Program-made: the position numbers and the translations under genes
Origin: a virus
IMG/VR virus record: IMGVR_UViG_3300005435_000020
Location: 1-64,000 of that record
DNA length: 64,000 nucleotides
Strand: one strand, 5' to 3'
The notes under the pieces: model-generated
Databases searched by the model: none
The model's input: only the letters and a program-made list of their open reading frames with translations
What the model was told of the DNA's origin: nothing
In this document: one piece after another, positions 3,440 through 51,063 of the stretch
Numbering within the stretch: the first letter of the stretch is position 1
Layout of the letters: every line of letters starts with the position of its first letter

Positions 3440-3730
3440 GTGAAGGCACTCAAGTATTCTCGATTCGCTTGGTATGAAGGCGAATCCACATCGAAGCCTG
3501 GCACCTCCAGACCATTCTGCAAAATGGTCAGGGTGACGGAGACAGGGGCTACAGAGACGTTTAGGGCTAACCTTTATCCTACGCGGGAAGGATTGTATAA
3601 ACTTCTCGTGTTCCCTGATACGTCAAGCCGACACTCCCTACTCCAGAAAATCGAGGCTGACACTGAGGATGAGGCCATAGGCTCCGCGAATGTTATTCTG
3701 AGTGTCAAGGAATTTCTACCATCCTCTTGA
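3440..3730 (+). CDS. Family A small protein
   Basis: This 96-aa protein starts at GTG. It begins MKALKYSRFAWYEGE and ends with EDEAIGSANVILSVKEFL, the family A signature with the tail truncated. The TGA stop (3728-3730) lies inside the TTGACA box of the next promoter, so this gene ends the transcription unit. Function is unknown. Confidence 0.72.
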   Translation: MKALKYSRFAWYEGESTSKPGTSRPFCKMVRVTETGATETFRANLYPTREGLYKLLVFPDTSSRHSLLQKIEADTEDEAIGSANVILSVKEFLPSS

Positions 3731-3755
3731 CAGACTAAAAATCCCATGGTAGTAT
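3727..3755 (+). promoter_or_regulatory. Sigma70-type promoter, TTGACA-N17-TAGTAT
   Basis: TTGACA at 3727-3732 and TAGTAT at 3750-3755, preceded by CATGG. The -35 box overlaps the stop codon of the preceding gene. It serves the 3789 gene. Confidence 0.85.
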
Positions 3756-3788
3756 TATTGAAGTGGCGTGAGTGAGTAGGAGAGAAGC

Positions 3789-4312: not shown

Positions 4313-4335
4313 GGTGTAGGTCTTAGGTAACACAC

Positions 4336-4364
4336 TTGACAGACTAATATAATACTGATAGGAT
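4336..4364 (+). promoter_or_regulatory. Sigma70-type promoter, TTGACA-N17-TAGGAT
   Basis: TTGACA at 4336-4341 and TAGGAT at 4359-4364 with a 17-base spacer. It is a slightly weaker version of the recurrent promoter and precedes three small genes. Confidence 0.75.
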
Positions 4365-4395
4365 TATAGTGTCGAAGGAAAGCGAGGAAGATACA

Positions 4396-4970: not shown

Positions 4971-4989
4971 GAAATTCCTAGCCACCCCA

Positions 4990-5018
4990 TTGACAGACCT
5001 ATAATCGCATGGTAGTAT
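4990..5018 (+). promoter_or_regulatory. Sigma70-type promoter, TTGACA-N17-TAGTAT
   Basis: TTGACA at 4990-4995 and TAGTAT at 5013-5018, preceded by CATGG. An ATG at 5009 lies inside this promoter and so cannot be the start of the following gene. Confidence 0.85.
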
Positions 5019-5050
5019 TATTTACAGGCGTTGTGAATAAGGAGGTTCCC

Positions 5051-5373: not shown

Positions 5374-5565
5374 TTGAATACCTTTGTTATTGGCGACTAT
5401 ATCAAGAGCAAGCTCTCCCCCCAGATGACGGGTCAGGTTATCCGTGTCGGCATCCTCGATGAGGGCAGGAAGAAAATCGTTGCCTACACTATCAGCATGC
5501 CTGCACCAAAGCGTGACACGATTATTCTCCAGGGAGATGCCATCGAAGTTTCCTCACCCTCTTGA
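5374..5565 (+). CDS. Hypothetical 63-aa protein
   Basis: It starts at TTG after AAAGGATAAG. The sequence is beta-rich (IGDYIKSKLSPQMTGQVIRVG), as in small SH3/KOW-like folds, but that is only an impression. The TGA stop overlaps the TTGACA box of the next promoter. Confidence 0.55.
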   Translation: MNTFVIGDYIKSKLSPQMTGQVIRVGILDEGRKKIVAYTISMPAPKRDTIILQGDAIEVSSPS

Positions 5566-5590
5566 CAAGAGCCAATACTCATGGTAGTAT
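5562..5590 (+). promoter_or_regulatory. Sigma70-type promoter, TTGACA-N17-TAGTAT
   Basis: TTGACA at 5562-5567 and TAGTAT at 5585-5590, preceded by CATGG. It drives the run of genes from 5626 to about 6421. Confidence 0.85.
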
Positions 5591-5625
5591 TACTGTGTAG
5601 TAGTGATTAGGCAGAGGAGCTAAGA

Positions 5626-7730: not shown

Positions 7731-7803
7731 GCCCCTGTAACTCATCGGTTAGAGTAAGGTCCTTATAAGACCTAAGTAGGTGGTTCAATTCCACCCAGGG
7801 GCA
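7731..7803 (+). tRNA. tRNA-Ile (anticodon UAU)
   Basis: A full cloverleaf can be drawn: acceptor GCCCCTG pairs with CAGGGGC, D-stem ACTC with GAGT, anticodon stem AGGTC with GACCT around loop CTTATAA, and T-stem GGTGG with CCACC. The anticodon TAT reads AUA isoleucine codons directly, with no need for lysidine modification of a CAU anticodon. The discriminator is A, and CCA is not encoded (ACCG follows). It lies in sense orientation between two protein genes, so it may be processed from the mRNA. Confidence 0.92.
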
Positions 7804-7832
7804 CCGTAGTTTGTACCGTAGAAAGGAATGAC

Positions 7833-23052: not shown

Positions 23053-24120
23053 TTGCTGGATTTGCAAGACATCCGGCGACGCTACGACTTGAGGGCCATG
23101 ATCCCCGCAGGCATCGACTACAGGGACACGGAGAGGTGCAGGGTCCAGCGGTGCCTCTGGCATCGAGAGTTGGACCCTTCCCTCCTGGTCTTCCAGGATG
23201 GCTATTTCTGCAAAGCATGCCGAGAGAGGGGAGACGTCATCGACTGGATACAGTTTGAGAAGCGCCTCACCTTCAAGGAAGCCCTCGACTATCTCTGCCG
23301 CAATGCTGGCACCACCGTCTATGAGACGCCAGCCTTCACGGAACCGAGGCCACTCCCTTGCGGCGTGGCACTGGACTACCACCTTGAGCTTACCCGCGAA
23401 GCCCTCGCCTACTATGAACACCGTGGGCTCTCGAAGGAGACCATCGTCAGGTTCCAGCTAGGCTACGGGAAGCCGCCAGGCCACGACTTCAATAGGTTCA
23501 CCATCCCAATCTACCGGGGCGATGATTTAGTAAATGTGAAGTTTCGACGCGACGATACGTGTCCCTACTGCGGGAGCTTCGACACCAAGGAGCAACACGG
23601 CACCGTCGCGTGTCCCTGCGGGGCATCCTGGGCTGCCGTGGGGACCAAGTATTTCAGCCTCAAGAATAGAGGCACACCGAGGCTCTTCAATGATAGGATT
23701 TTGTCTGGCGGCGTGATAGCACAATGCCAGTATGGTATAATACCTAGAGTAGTAATAACAGAAGGCGAATTCGATGCGATGGTCACCACCCAACACGGGT
23801 ACCCTGCCGTCGCCTCGACGGGAGGTGCCCTCAATTTCCAGAGAGGGTGGGCACCAGCGTTTGCGCCAGTCAGGCAGGTCTACAGCATCTTTGACAACGA
23901 CACTGCCGGTAATAAGGGTCGGAGTATTCTCCATCTGAGCTTGCCTCGCGTTGTCGATGTGTTCCTCCCCGTCAAGGAGGACAAAGCAGACCTGACGGAT
24001 TATTTTCGCCTCTACGGTTCTTCTGACTTCGAGGCCATGATCAATAGTGCAAAACGCCACGCCAGAAACCAGCGACAAGTTGCATGGCTCCGGCGTGATC
24101 ATGGACAGAGCTACAACTGA
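23053..24120 (+). CDS. DnaG-like primase (CHC2 zinc finger plus TOPRIM)
   Basis: This 355-aa protein starts at TTG 23053. It has a CHC2-type zinc finger (C34-L-W-H37 and C53-K-A-C56 followed by GD) and a TOPRIM fold with EGE (237-239) and DND (281-283). Between them lies an inserted zinc ribbon (CPYC at 170-173, CPCG near 187). It would make RNA primers for replication. It lacks the C-terminal helicase-binding domain of bacterial DnaG, common for phage primases. The candidate origin follows directly. Confidence 0.85.
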   Translation: MLDLQDIRRRYDLRAMIPAGIDYRDTERCRVQRCLWHRELDPSLLVFQDGYFCKACRERGDVIDWIQFEKRLTFKEALDYLCRNAGTTVYETPAFTEPRPLPCGVALDYHLELTREALAYYEHRGLSKETIVRFQLGYGKPPGHDFNRFTIPIYRGDDLVNVKFRRDDTCPYCGSFDTKEQHGTVACPCGASWAAVGTKYFSLKNRGTPRLFNDRILSGGVIAQCQYGIIPRVVITEGEFDAMVTTQHGYPAVASTGGALNFQRGWAPAFAPVRQVYSIFDNDTAGNKGRSILHLSLPRVVDVFLPVKEDKADLTDYFRLYGSSDFEAMINSAKRHARNQRQVAWLRRDHGQSYN

Positions 24121-24474
24121 AGAACAATTGAATACGTGAAACCCCTGCGAAGGGGCCATCACACAACCTGCTGCTGACCTAGGACCTCCCTCGCCATTTC
24201 TGGCAGGTTGGGAGGCTAGCAGCGGCTTGCCCACACCGACTTTCATAGCAACCACGTCAGCCCCAAAGTTACGAAGCAGCAGCGTTACCAGGGGCAAAAG
24301 ACGAAAAATCCTCCACCCAGCAAACGCGATGCTAGCTTCAGTCGGGTGTCGGCTATAGGGGCGAAGCCCCCTAAATAGAACCCCCGAAGGGGGTTACGAG
24401 ATAGAGAAATACAAGTCCTACTACGTAGTAGGACTTCGTGGAATAGACGAAGTGAAGAATAGGCGTAGCTATAT
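24121..24474. other. Hairpin-rich gap, candidate replication origin
   Basis: This 354-nt gap has no convincing gene and at least five inverted repeats. CCCCT-GCGA-AGGGG is at 24142-24155, GGGGC-GAA-GCCCC at 24358-24370 and AACCCCC-GAA-GGGGGTT at 24379-24395. A perfect 24-bp palindrome is at 24413-24436 (half-site AAGTCCTACTAC), and CTTCGT/ACGAAG at 24434-24452. The second contains GCGAAGC, known to form an exceptionally stable DNA mini-hairpin. It lies between the primase gene and the helicase cluster. It could instead be a structured RNA or strong transcription block. Confidence 0.5.
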
Positions 24475-24957
24475 ATGTACCCACACGATGATGAGGATGA
24501 AGGTCCATTGCTCCCTTCCGTGGGGACCAAGGTTCCGTGGATTGAGAGGGAAGGCGATGATGTTTTCGAGGAACACAGGTCATTGTGGCTTGACCCTTGG
24601 TTCCCTGGGTGCGGGAGGCAGCCCACGAGGAAGCGTGGCGTGGCAGAGAGATATAGCCTCTATCCAAACGACGTGAAGAGCAGCCTTTCGTATCGCCTGA
24701 TGCAGCTACTATCCCAGTGCAAGAGTGTGCAGGAGGAGAAGGGGATCATCGAAAGGTATTGGAAGAGGTGCTTTCCCAACGTAAGAGAAAGTTGGCCCTT
24801 GCTTATGAAGTGGAGGAAACTCTACACCACAAAGAGATTGATTATGGCGATGATAGTGACGTCGAAGAGGGGCATCACAAAGCCTTCGGAAGTACCGGGA
24901 TATATCGTCTCTGTGCTCAGGGACTGGGAGACTAACGGCGTTGAAATTTACGGGTGA
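24475..24957 (+). CDS. Replication-cluster protein with KRGITK motif
   Basis: This 160-aa protein starts at ATG 24475 without a strong ribosome site. The N-terminus is acidic; the C-terminal part is basic and helical with VTSKRGITKPSEVPGYIVS near residues 128-146. The next gene has the same motif (VTRQRGITKTPQAYALG), so the two share a domain. Between primase and helicase, this pair is suited to origin binding or helicase loading; that is inference. Confidence 0.55.
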   Translation: MYPHDDEDEGPLLPSVGTKVPWIEREGDDVFEEHRSLWLDPWFPGCGRQPTRKRGVAERYSLYPNDVKSSLSYRLMQLLSQCKSVQEEKGIIERYWKRCFPNVRESWPLLMKWRKLYTTKRLIMAMIVTSKRGITKPSEVPGYIVSVLRDWETNGVEIYG

Positions 24958-25231
24958 CGCTTATAAAGATTTCGGCAATTGCGTTGATGACACGCAACGG
25001 AGCCATTGCGCCATGCATTATTTCGAGAGGGCCTACCCGATGTCCCTGACGCCAGGGCAACTGCGTGGCGTGACGAAGAAGTATGGCCCACACAACATAC
25101 TGAAGGGCATCGTCGTCACGAGGCAGAGGGGCATCACGAAGACACCGCAAGCATACGCATTGGGGGTGGCGAAGAAGCTCAAGGCACAGGAAACCGAGGG
25201 GATGCTGTTTCGTGAGGAGGAGTCGCATTGA
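24941..25231 (+). CDS. Putative helicase-loader-like protein
   Basis: This 96-aa protein starts at TTG within the end of the previous gene and stops in a TTGA overlap with the helicase. It shares the RGITK motif and a surrounding helical segment with the 24475 protein but lacks its acidic N-terminus. Direct coupling to the DnaB-like gene suggests a loader or cofactor. Family not recognised. Confidence 0.55.
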   Translation: MKFTGDAYKDFGNCVDDTQRSHCAMHYFERAYPMSLTPGQLRGVTKKYGPHNILKGIVVTRQRGITKTPQAYALGVAKKLKAQETEGMLFREEESH

Positions 25232-26619
25232 GTAGGGACGGCTTCGAGGCGCAATTCATAGCGATGCTCCTCGATGAGCCTTCGCTGATCAGGCTTGCTT
25301 CCGTGGAGCCTGACGATTTTGCCGACACACTCCACGCAAACGTCTATAAACTCCTGCGTGGCATGAAAGTTGACGTCACACCTGTGACGGTACATTCCGA
25401 GTTGGAGCAATGCGGATTCGGCACAGCCATCCCCTACGTGGAGAGCCTGTATGACTTGGTGCCTGATGACGTCAGCATCGAGGCGCTGAAGACGAGGGCT
25501 GCGAAGCTGAGGGAGAACCACATCCGAAGGGACACCTCCAAGAGGCTCCAGGAGCACTTGAAGCGCCTCCAGGACCCCTCCCTGGACCTCTCGAAGCAGA
25601 TCAGCGATGTGTCGGAAGTACTCACCGACGCAGGCAGGGGATTACTCGGGGAAGACAGCCCCACGGCAGATGCGATTATCCAGAGGGCTCATGCACAGAC
25701 GCAGGGTATTCGCTTCGCGTCTGGCCTCTCGGGAGTAGACGCCGCCTTGACTGCCCACGGTATGAGGCAAGGCCACGTCTGGGTCATCGTGGCACCCTAC
25801 AAGGGATTCAAGACAGGCACTGCCCTCAATATCGTGGATACGCTTTTACAAGATAACAGAAGCGTCAGCTACGTTGCCTTGGAGGATAATGATATTGCCT
25901 TCACAGAAGTCCTGACGGCGGCGCATAGCGGTGTGCCCCTCGAAATCATCGAGGATTGGCATGTGGACAAGATCACGCCTCCACCCATCTACACACAAGC
26001 ACTACAAGACGCAGAAGACTGGCTCTCCGTCACGGTGAAGGACAGATTCCGCGTCTACGATGCCTCGAAACACGCAGTCCATTCTTGGAAAGCCTTTCCC
26101 ACCCTTGTAGCCATAGATAAATCACTGTATAATACTGATGTGGTGGTTATCGACTATGTGCAGGCGTGGGCAGAGGAACACGAAGACCTGGCCCAGGTGG
26201 CGCAGATGTTGGTGAAGGTGGCGGCAGAGTATCAGGTCTGCCTCCTTGTGCTCAGCCAGATGCCCAACGATGCCATCAAGAATGGCGCTGGTCAGCACCT
26301 CGCCACGAAGGGCAGCGGCTCTTTGGGGCAGGCAACCCACGTCGGCATCGAGGTGAAATTCGACAAGGAGCAATGCTTCAGCAAGGTCACACCTGACATC
26401 TTGAAGGAGTTGGCGCAGCACAACGTCAAGCACTTTCTTTCGATGACGGGTGGCCCACCATTCCAAGGCAATCCTACACCTAGCGACATCATGGAAGTCG
26501 GCTACCACCTGAAAACCGTGAGGCGTGGGAAGATTAGCAAGATGTATTCGCTGATTGATCCCGTCTCTCAGAAGGTATTGTTACAGTCTTCCAAGCCTAC
26601 GTTTATGCCAGTCTTTTAG
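25228..26619 (+). CDS. DnaB-like replicative helicase with altered Walker A
   Basis: It starts at TTG in a TTGA overlap. The 463-aa protein has a DnaB N-terminal-like helical domain (1-110) and a RecA-like motor. Walker B is VVVIDYVQAW, as in DnaB DYLQ. The P-loop is APYKGFKT, where the canonical Gly before Lys is Phe. QMPND and GSGSLGQATHVGIEV match the later DnaB motifs. Its place after primase supports the role. Whether the odd P-loop hydrolyses ATP normally is unknown. It contains a dyad repeat at 25409-25425. Confidence 0.8.
   Translation: MSRDGFEAQFIAMLLDEPSLIRLASVEPDDFADTLHANVYKLLRGMKVDVTPVTVHSELEQCGFGTAIPYVESLYDLVPDDVSIEALKTRAAKLRENHIRRDTSKRLQEHLKRLQDPSLDLSKQISDVSEVLTDAGRGLLGEDSPTADAIIQRAHAQTQGIRFASGLSGVDAALTAHGMRQGHVWVIVAPYKGFKTGTALNIVDTLLQDNRSVSYVALEDNDIAFTEVLTAAHSGVPLEIIEDWHVDKITPPPIYTQALQDAEDWLSVTVKDRFRVYDASKHAVHSWKAFPTLVAIDKSLYNTDVVVIDYVQAWAEEHEDLAQVAQMLVKVAAEYQVCLLVLSQMPNDAIKNGAGQHLATKGSGSLGQATHVGIEVKFDKEQCFSKVTPDILKELAQHNVKHFLSMTGGPPFQGNPTPSDIMEVGYHLKTVRRGKISKMYSLIDPVSQKVLLQSSKPTFMPVF
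25409..25425 (+). promoter_or_regulatory. Dyad repeat site inside helicase gene
   Basis: AATGCG-GATTC-GGCACA, forward orientation, read here as C-G-F-G-T, a different codon frame from the copies at 8547 and 49504. The conservation is therefore at DNA level. Confidence 0.6.
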
Positions 26620-26628
26620 GGGGAACCA

Positions 26629-27129
26629 ATGCGTTGTACTGAAACACCCCAAAAATCAGGGAGGTTTCTCAAGTACCCTAGCCTCATCGAAAGGTTCCGT
26701 AGCGAGGATGCTAGCATCGTGGCGGCACACGACGATGCCGTGGTATATAGCGATGGTTTTGTCCTTCCAGACCCATTGAAGACACACGAAAGCGACATCA
26801 AGAACACGGATGGGATGCAAGACATCCTTCGCCTCGCCTTACTCGCCGCAAACACAGGGAAAGCGAAGACCCTGAGGGAGGCCATCGTGGTGGCATTCCA
26901 TCAGAAATACCTCGAAGTGTGCAGGGACCACGGGGAGACGCCATCGTGTCCCCCGCAGTATCGCCTCCCGAATAGGCAGGCTGCCAGGGTCAACGCGAGG
27001 AGGCGCATCAAACGTCTCCTCGGCAAGGGCCTGACACTAGAGAACATCGCAGAGAAACTTTGTCTCACCGTGGATGGTGTGAAGGATATTGGATGTACCG
27101 ATAAGCGGTATCGTAGTTGGAGACTTTAG
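26629..27129 (+). CDS. Hypothetical protein with C-terminal HTH-like segment
   Basis: ATG 26629 follows AGGGGGAACC. The 166-aa protein is helical, with a basic stretch AARVNARRRIKRLLGKG and LTLENIAEKLCLTVDGVKDI near the end, which looks like a helix-turn-helix. DNA binding is inferred. The stop is one base from the reductase start. Confidence 0.58.
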   Translation: MRCTETPQKSGRFLKYPSLIERFRSEDASIVAAHDDAVVYSDGFVLPDPLKTHESDIKNTDGMQDILRLALLAANTGKAKTLREAIVVAFHQKYLEVCRDHGETPSCPPQYRLPNRQAARVNARRRIKRLLGKGLTLENIAEKLCLTVDGVKDIGCTDKRYRSWRL

Positions 27130-32925: not shown

Positions 32926-33335
32926 TCAAGAAGATATCGGGAAGTATCTACAATCCGTATTATTATGATGACGATGGTGTGGATGTCGAGGAGGGTGGCG
33001 TCTTTATCAATGGCATACAACTAGCCGAATCCTTAGTAGAAAACTTCCAAGGCAAGATGGTCTATGCGAGGCTTGCCTATGCGAAGACGCCTATTTCTGA
33101 TGAGTTGTTTTTGGAGATAGCAGACCAGCTTGAGGGTATTTTCGAGGGACACTCGGAGTACCATAGGGGTTACAGCGAGTATACCCCAGGTTACTATGAT
33201 GAATATGGTAATATTGGAGGTCACAAATTACTTGACGTGATGGCATCATATGAAGGGGATTACGTTTATCTCCTTATTGCCGATGAGCCCATCCCTGACC
33301 TTGCAGAAGCACTAAGTAAAGCAGAAAGTTTATAA
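32922..33335 (+). CDS. Hypothetical Tyr-rich acidic protein
   Basis: ATG 32922 is in an ATGA overlap. The 137-aa protein is rich in Tyr, Gly and acidic residues, with a segment EYHRGYSEYTPGYYDEYGN. It is predicted cytoplasmic. Function is unknown. Confidence 0.6.
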   Translation: MIKKISGSIYNPYYYDDDGVDVEEGGVFINGIQLAESLVENFQGKMVYARLAYAKTPISDELFLEIADQLEGIFEGHSEYHRGYSEYTPGYYDEYGNIGGHKLLDVMASYEGDYVYLLIADEPIPDLAEALSKAESL

Positions 33336-33682
33336 TGAATAGGCGTCGTTTCTTCGTAGCTGCCGCATCTACTCTCGCAGGGCTGGCTGCTTTGGCTCTG
33401 TATAAATCGCAGCCTGCCGTAGAGACTTTTGTGTTTGACGCTACTGACATGTGCATAAACTTCGGTAAGAAAGACTACCTCTTTACTTATTATAGCCATG
33501 GTAAAAAAGTATTCAGTGGGTGGAATAGCAGCATACAGTCCATCACATCACAGTCGGGTGGTCCTCTAGGATTTGAACACACGATGGAGCTAAGGGATGG
33601 TAGAAAGATCACGGGATATTCTTATGCTTTCCATCCTATATTCAACACATCGGTTTGGGAACACGTAAGCATGGAGGTATAG
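33335..33682 (+). CDS. Putative Tat-exported small protein 1
   Basis: ATG 33335 overlaps the previous stop (TAATG). The 115-aa protein starts MNRRRFFVAAASTLAGLAAL, a twin-arginine signal (RRxFF plus hydrophobic core). The mature part is beta-rich. Its neighbour at 33682 has the same signal design, so the pair probably arose by duplication. Function is unknown. Confidence 0.68.
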   Translation: MNRRRFFVAAASTLAGLAALALYKSQPAVETFVFDATDMCINFGKKDYLFTYYSHGKKVFSGWNSSIQSITSQSGGPLGFEHTMELRDGRKITGYSYAFHPIFNTSVWEHVSMEV

Positions 33683-49944: not shown

Positions 49945-49985
49945 AAAATAAGCCCCCTACCCGATGAAGGTAGGGGGCTTATTTT
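49945..49985. terminator. Bidirectional terminator between convergent modules
   Basis: A 17-bp stem (49945-49961 with 49969-49985, core GCCCCCTACC/GGTAGGGGGC) with a 7-nt loop has A-tracts and T-tracts on both sides. It separates the plus-strand lipoprotein unit from the minus-strand tail module. Confidence 0.92.
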
Positions 49986-51037: not shown

Positions 51038-51063
51038 TAAAAAAGGACACCCGAAGGTGTCCT
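51038..51063 (-). terminator. Rho-independent terminator after the repressor
   Basis: On the minus strand AGGACACC-TTCG-GGTGTCCT is followed by T5-6 and ATT. It ends transcription of the repressor gene, so the HNH gene depends on read-through or another promoter. Confidence 0.85.

Follow-up and report, generated by a model that had tools for sequence, protein, structure and literature searches.

The stretch of DNA analyzed here (the window, 64,000 nt) comprises bases 1-64000 of a 100,907-nt viral record, in which no end repeat was detected; the other 36.9 kb of the record were read as well. Genes for a portal, a terminase, an endolysin-like protein, integrase-like proteins, a primase, a DnaB-like helicase and a ribonucleotide reductase mark the record, by their sequences, as that of a tailed phage. 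Its genes are oriented along the + strand up to ~49.9 kb and along the - strand thereafter, from 50 kb onwards. Within the + strand replication cluster, the DnaG-type primase gene is followed by a gap, an ORF of 160 codons and the gene of the replicative helicase (Table 1). The coding scores of the gap are negative in all six reading frames and those of the flanking ORFs are positive, which rules out the gap as coding sequence and agrees with the original prediction of a 354-nt stretch with no gene. The gap had also been placed between the primase and helicase genes; the primase indeed adjoins it (stop codon at 24118-24120), but on the other side the next ORF, beginning at 24475, encodes the 160-aa protein, and the helicase gene comes after it.

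The primase additionally matches TIGR01391 with 81.6 bits, which is under the cut-off. The 160-aa ORF has a weak PHROG match to phrog_4853, a family annotated as function unknown (E 0.0016). Structure models were poor for this ORF (pLDDT 51) and for a 124-aa ORF (pLDDT 39), and a fold search with the 160-aa model gave nothing below E 2; the end of this protein may resemble DnaD-type proteins.

Elsewhere in the record, a repeat of 41 nt whose core is TTGACA...TAGTAT is present in six copies (561-601, 2022-2062, 3719-3759, 4328-4368, 4982-5022 and 5554-5594), all located upstream of early genes and sharing an operator-like centre; these are probable early promoters of the phage. A single tRNA-Ile gene (anticodon TAT) lies at 7731-7805. 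Two adjacent ORFs (33335-33682 and 33678 onwards) have nearly identical starts containing MNRRRFF, which we take to be a Tat-signal-like motif, so named from sequence; the ORFs may thus encode exported proteins, unusual for a phage, and the first of them has no NCBIfam match. A GAATAGGCGT repeat was tried as a start-associated motif and rejected, because its other two exact + strand copies are the starts of these two Tat-like protein genes. Exactly at the switch of gene direction, a 17-bp hairpin with A/T-run flanks (49945-49985) looks like a two-way terminator. The site at 51044-51063, AGGACACC[CGAA]GGTGTCCT, would form a hairpin with a UUCG loop on the - strand, with TTTTTA behind it, and is terminator-like for the - strand genes.

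Table 1. Features of the primase-helicase locus (loop bases in square brackets)
Feature	Position	Strand	Basis or remark
DnaG-type primase gene, CHC2 zinc ribbon + TOPRIM, 355 aa	23053-24120	+	Pfam PF01807, PF13155; PHROG DNA primases
Hairpin-rich non-coding gap (origin candidate or structured element), 354 nt	24121-24474		Coding scores, hairpin cluster, fold z
Hairpin 1, GNRA tetraloop, CCCCT[GCGA]AGGGG	24142-24155; with outer GTGA/TCAC pairs 24136-24162	+	
Larger predicted stem-loop, 57 nt	24170-24226		Predicted fold; modest z of -2.2 for 24160-24235
Interrupted 12-bp long-range helix (3+5+4) closing a ~100-nt domain	24229-24353		Predicted fold; modest z of -2.3 for 24225-24357
Mini-hairpin GGGGC[GAA]GCCCC	24358-24370		GCGAAGC at 24361-24367
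Mini-hairpin AACCCCC[GAA]GGGGGTT	24379-24395		
Perfect 24-nt palindrome AAGTCCTACTACGTAGTAGGACTT	24413-24436		Unique in record
160-aa ORF 3' of the gap	24475-24957	+	Coding score positive
DnaB-like replicative helicase gene	25228-26619	+	phrog_19, E 1.3e-30; PF03796

Hairpins, palindrome and fold of the gap

As originally described, the gap holds GNRA- and GAA-looped GC hairpins, a perfect palindrome and a further 6-bp stem (CCTCCC/GGGAGG), and also 7-bp stems (e.g. ACTTCGT/ACGAAGT). The two mini-hairpins are the only GAA-triloop hairpins with a stem of at least 5 bp in the 64-kb window. The gap contains four perfect GC hairpins; its dinucleotide shuffles average 0.56, and none of 1000 reaches four. 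Among 1705 segments of 354 nt across the record, the summed hairpin score of the gap is reached by two, both of which overlap the gap, and the bare count of four hairpins is reached in 12. At 24 nt, the palindrome exceeds every other in the record (the runner-up has 16 nt), and it is possibly a binding site for a dimeric protein or a cruciform. The second exact copy of its half-site, at 95450, was discarded, being inside an 85-aa - strand ORF.

Relative to shuffled sequences, the whole gap folds with an RNA z-score of about -4.0 to -4.2 (+ strand) or -4.4 (- strand); with DNA parameters the values are -4.5 and -4.9, respectively. The two strands and the DNA parameters thus give equally structured folds, as expected for a DNA element. 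The z-score of the gap is the lowest among 143 sampled windows, of which coding ones go to -4.0, and the gap takes third rank among 38 crudely called gaps.

The fold bears directly on another reading, offered in the original prediction as a new structured RNA, in which the GNRA and GAA hairpins of the sense transcript would protect the end of the primase mRNA, serve as processing sites or uncouple primase and helicase expression. We regard it as the main competitor of an origin, possible though doubtful. The gap lies within a co-directional + strand operon, its RNA z-score of about -4 is consistent with such an element, both loop types, GNRA and GAA, are also stable as RNA, and the larger predicted stem-loop includes G-U pairs on the + strand. 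However, the fold of the - strand is no weaker than that of the + strand (-142 versus -121 kcal/mol), which gives no hint of selection for a sense RNA, and the gap interior between the hairpins has modest structure only (z about -2.3). No known RNA element was recognized either: no Rfam 15 family reaches its gathering score in the gap, the sole match of the window being the tRNA-Ile gene, and the best weak match of the gap, PhotoRC-I on the - strand, scores 14.2 bits, the threshold being 45. Hammerhead-like letters 3' of the primase stop codon were rejected on inspection by eye.

A cluster of terminators was the outcome that the original prediction had named as speaking against an origin. No T-run longer than three follows the gap hairpins on either strand, and such a cluster is therefore unsupported. 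A broader, non-replicative role as a regulatory or barrier region, in which a dimeric regulator would bind the palindrome as its operator and the remaining hairpins would weakly terminate or block transcription, mainly that of the antisense (-) strand, is in our view unlikely. The palindrome is perfect and unique and is flagged as terminator-like on the - strand, where the terminator-like site at 51044-51063 also has its UUCG loop. The hairpin tails are T-rich on the - side, where 17 of 40 bases are T (+ side, 6 of 40), but with the base composition taken into account this bias is of marginal significance (p 0.057), and the gap hairpins lack the clear T-runs of the terminator-like hairpins at 51044, 93678 and 100228. 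Moreover, the gap has no - strand gene or promoter-like site, and the palindrome half-site shows no enrichment across the window (five matches with up to two mismatches versus 3.2 expected).

GC skew and origin signals

Cumulative GC skew climbs across the entire record, and we used its detrended form, from which the mean slope is subtracted. The detrended minimum falls at 24385, within the second mini-hairpin, and likewise at 24385 when the + gene half is taken on its own. With the gap masked the minimum persists at 24486, so the hairpins alone are not its cause. The GC-skew check suggested with the original prediction thus gives a suggestive position and a weak signal. The amplitude is not significant over the whole record, as block permutation gives p 0.04 with 300-nt blocks, 0.27 with 1-kb blocks and 0.44 with 2-kb blocks; a second minimum at 27069 has nearly equal depth (-208 versus -234); and at fourfold sites no shift in skew is seen at 24.3 kb (z 1.2).

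Iterons were sought in and beside the gap by scanning for tandem and direct repeats, and none was found. The DnaA box TTATCCACA, with up to one mismatch, is absent from the gap and occurs 16 times in the window versus 11.6 expected. No sigma-70-like promoter was found in the gap. The best 100-nt stretch at the gap has an AT content of 59%, in the top 1.6% of windows, the record maximum being 65%; a strong AT-rich stretch is absent there. The position of the skew minimum is therefore suggestive and the accompanying origin signal weak, because of the amplitude, the minimum at 27069, the fourfold sites, the lack of iterons and a DnaA box, and the mild AT content.

Relatives of the locus and of the mini-hairpins

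A DNA search of phage and plasmid records matched no part of the replication region, and the gap alone gave only a microvirus match. The peptides used from the helicase, the 160-aa ORF and the ribonucleotide reductase gave no relative in IMG/VR, and the primase relatives found there are only 25-35% identical. None of 30 such distant primase loci has a comparable gap, which at this distance says little on the refuting condition of the original prediction that homologous phages lack the hairpins. The next ORF mostly lies directly 3' of the primase; it is at least 100 nt away in four of the 30 loci, each with zero or one hairpin in the spacing, and a further locus has no following ORF within the available sequence. 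Among the terminase and portal matches listed, the nearest relatives of the phage are a 6,332-nt contig (terminase and portal 49-51% identical) and a 5.7-kb contig (portal 34% identical), both without the replication region, and a portal-alignment profile search of genome contigs gave no relative spanning the locus.

The GCGAAGC mini-hairpin, put forward in the original prediction as a mark of origins, fared poorly in that role. On the stem TAGGGGC/GCCCCCTA in IMG/VR, the GAA loop is found in none of 25 matches and TTC in one. The pair GGGGCGAAGCCCC...CCCCGAAGGGG, searched with a spacing of 2-30 bases, has a single IMG/VR occurrence, in a contig of a microvirus whose genes lie on the other strand, and is found in 28 stretches of bacterial or archaeal genomes. 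Since the viral stem shows no preference for GAA and the pair recurs in cellular DNA, GCGAAGC is weak evidence of an origin; as judged from these sequences, the motif recurs and does not itself point to one. The accessible portions of the literature on GCGAAGC with hairpin and origin, and on both hairpin sequences, contained nothing evidently about such a phage element.

Six of the 28 stretches form one Clostridia family sharing the pair and ~50 nt around it. This is a dispersed intergenic double-hairpin element of ~53 nt with 91-99% pairwise identity, seen in MAGs mostly of Clostridia. The bacterial pairs and the gap are alike in the two mini-hairpins, whereas their flanks and spacers are unrelated, and a blastn comparison of the Clostridia elements with the gap gives nothing at E 1e-3. 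A 21-nt identity with the microvirus bajarodmic virus 8 around the first mini-hairpin was rejected as homology (E 0.4, compatible with chance). A family of viral contigs shares an element, CCCTCCCGCCCTCTAG..TAGGGGCNNTGCCCCCTA..AGTCAACCCCTGG, mostly outside long ORFs, which is a putative conserved viral hairpin element.

That the gap is a neutral spacer with no present function, either a remnant of lost genes or an inserted REP-like double-hairpin repeat, is very unlikely: the similar pair seen in bacteria, among them a dispersed family of Clostridia with little else in common, and the microvirus identity over the mini-hairpin would fit it, but the Clostridia elements lack a blastn match to the gap at that cut-off, the microvirus identity is compatible with chance, and this short gap has retained four strong hairpins in an otherwise hairpin-poor record.

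The gap as a candidate origin and comparison with known systems

We tentatively interpret the gap as an origin of replication of the stem-loop type, or a priming region, next to the primase gene, in a pRN1/BIP-1-like arrangement with a different primase and helicase, and give this interpretation somewhat less than an even chance. The gap is a reasonable candidate for the replication start of the phage, as originally proposed: it is non-coding, structured beyond chance, located in the replication cluster, and coincides with the hairpin maximum of the 100.9-kb record and with the skew minimum. The hairpins without T-tracts and the pRN1 precedent also count for an origin. Counting against it are the non-significant skew amplitude, the unchanged skew at fourfold sites, the lack of iterons, a DnaA box and a strong AT-rich stretch, the absence of a comparable gap from the 30 distant primase relatives, the fold z-scores equalled by some coding windows and other gaps, and the other type of the pRN1 replication protein.

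For such an origin, we infer that an initiator, possibly the protein from the adjoining 160-aa ORF, would bind the duplex, perhaps at the 24-nt palindrome, and that the region would be opened by negative supercoiling or helicase loading. The GNRA- and GNA-loop mini-hairpins would form on the exposed single strands, and the phage primase and DnaB-like helicase would then assemble at the gap, where the first primers would be laid. A more specific version, in which a double-stranded DNA tailed phage has an iteron-free and DnaA-free origin and its own primase directly recognizes extruded GNA/GNRA mini-hairpins beside the palindrome, appears quite unlikely. If true, it would represent a primase-marked origin, following the logic of single-stranded DNA phages and RSF1010, in a large double-stranded DNA phage. 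Few replication origins have been located in uncultured phages; if the gap is an origin, it would suggest a search rule, namely the hairpin maximum of a genome adjoining the primase gene at the skew minimum.

The promoter of the phage N4 virion RNA polymerase is a hairpin with a GNA triloop, a C:G closing pair and a GC stem (PMC4496689). Both mini-hairpins of the gap (24358-24370 and 24379-24395) share a three-base G..A loop on a C:G-closed GC stem with the N4 hairpins as described there. As small GC hairpins, they would also be able to extrude under supercoiling, as the N4 hairpins are (PMC4496689). No N4-type giant virion RNA polymerase was named among 40 ORFs scanned with PHROGs, several large ORFs being without a match.

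In the phage G4, which differs from the present phage in being a single-stranded DNA phage, the complementary-strand origin has short hairpins as a proposed priming site. In RSF1010, the ssiA and ssiB sites are stem-loops recognized by the primase (PMC4234260). The gap resembles these systems in its short hairpins proposed as single-strand priming sites. RSF1010 is described as additionally requiring an iteron origin bound by RepC, whereas the gap has no iterons, and its RepB' primase is a different protein from the phage primase.

The Sulfolobus plasmid pRN1 offers the comparison on which the origin interpretation is modelled. In its published description, the primase/helicase gene is followed directly by a non-coding stretch containing a small terminator-like hairpin and then a ~100-nt stem-loop required for replication, and the same layout was predicted by its authors for phage BIP-1 (PMC4234260). 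The phage gap shares with the pRN1-type origin, as described there, a structured non-coding stretch immediately 3' of the primase gene and the lack of iterons. The order of elements is also similar to the published outline, with hairpin 1 beginning 16 nt past the stop codon of the primase, the larger predicted stem-loop starting at ~50 nt and further hairpins beyond it, although the gap has several hairpins and a palindrome where the pRN1 outline has a single 100-nt stem-loop. The enzymes differ. The same account gives pRN1 and BIP-1 an archaeo-eukaryotic primase, an SF3 helicase and a winged helix in one chain, whereas the phage has a TOPRIM DnaG-type primase and a separate gene for a DnaB-like helicase, and the phage is therefore not a member of the pRN1/BIP-1 family. 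By analogy, the gap may nevertheless work like a pRN1-type origin; if it is an origin, the stem-loop origin idea drawn from pRN1 and BIP-1 would be widened to phages with separate enzymes of the DnaG and DnaB type.
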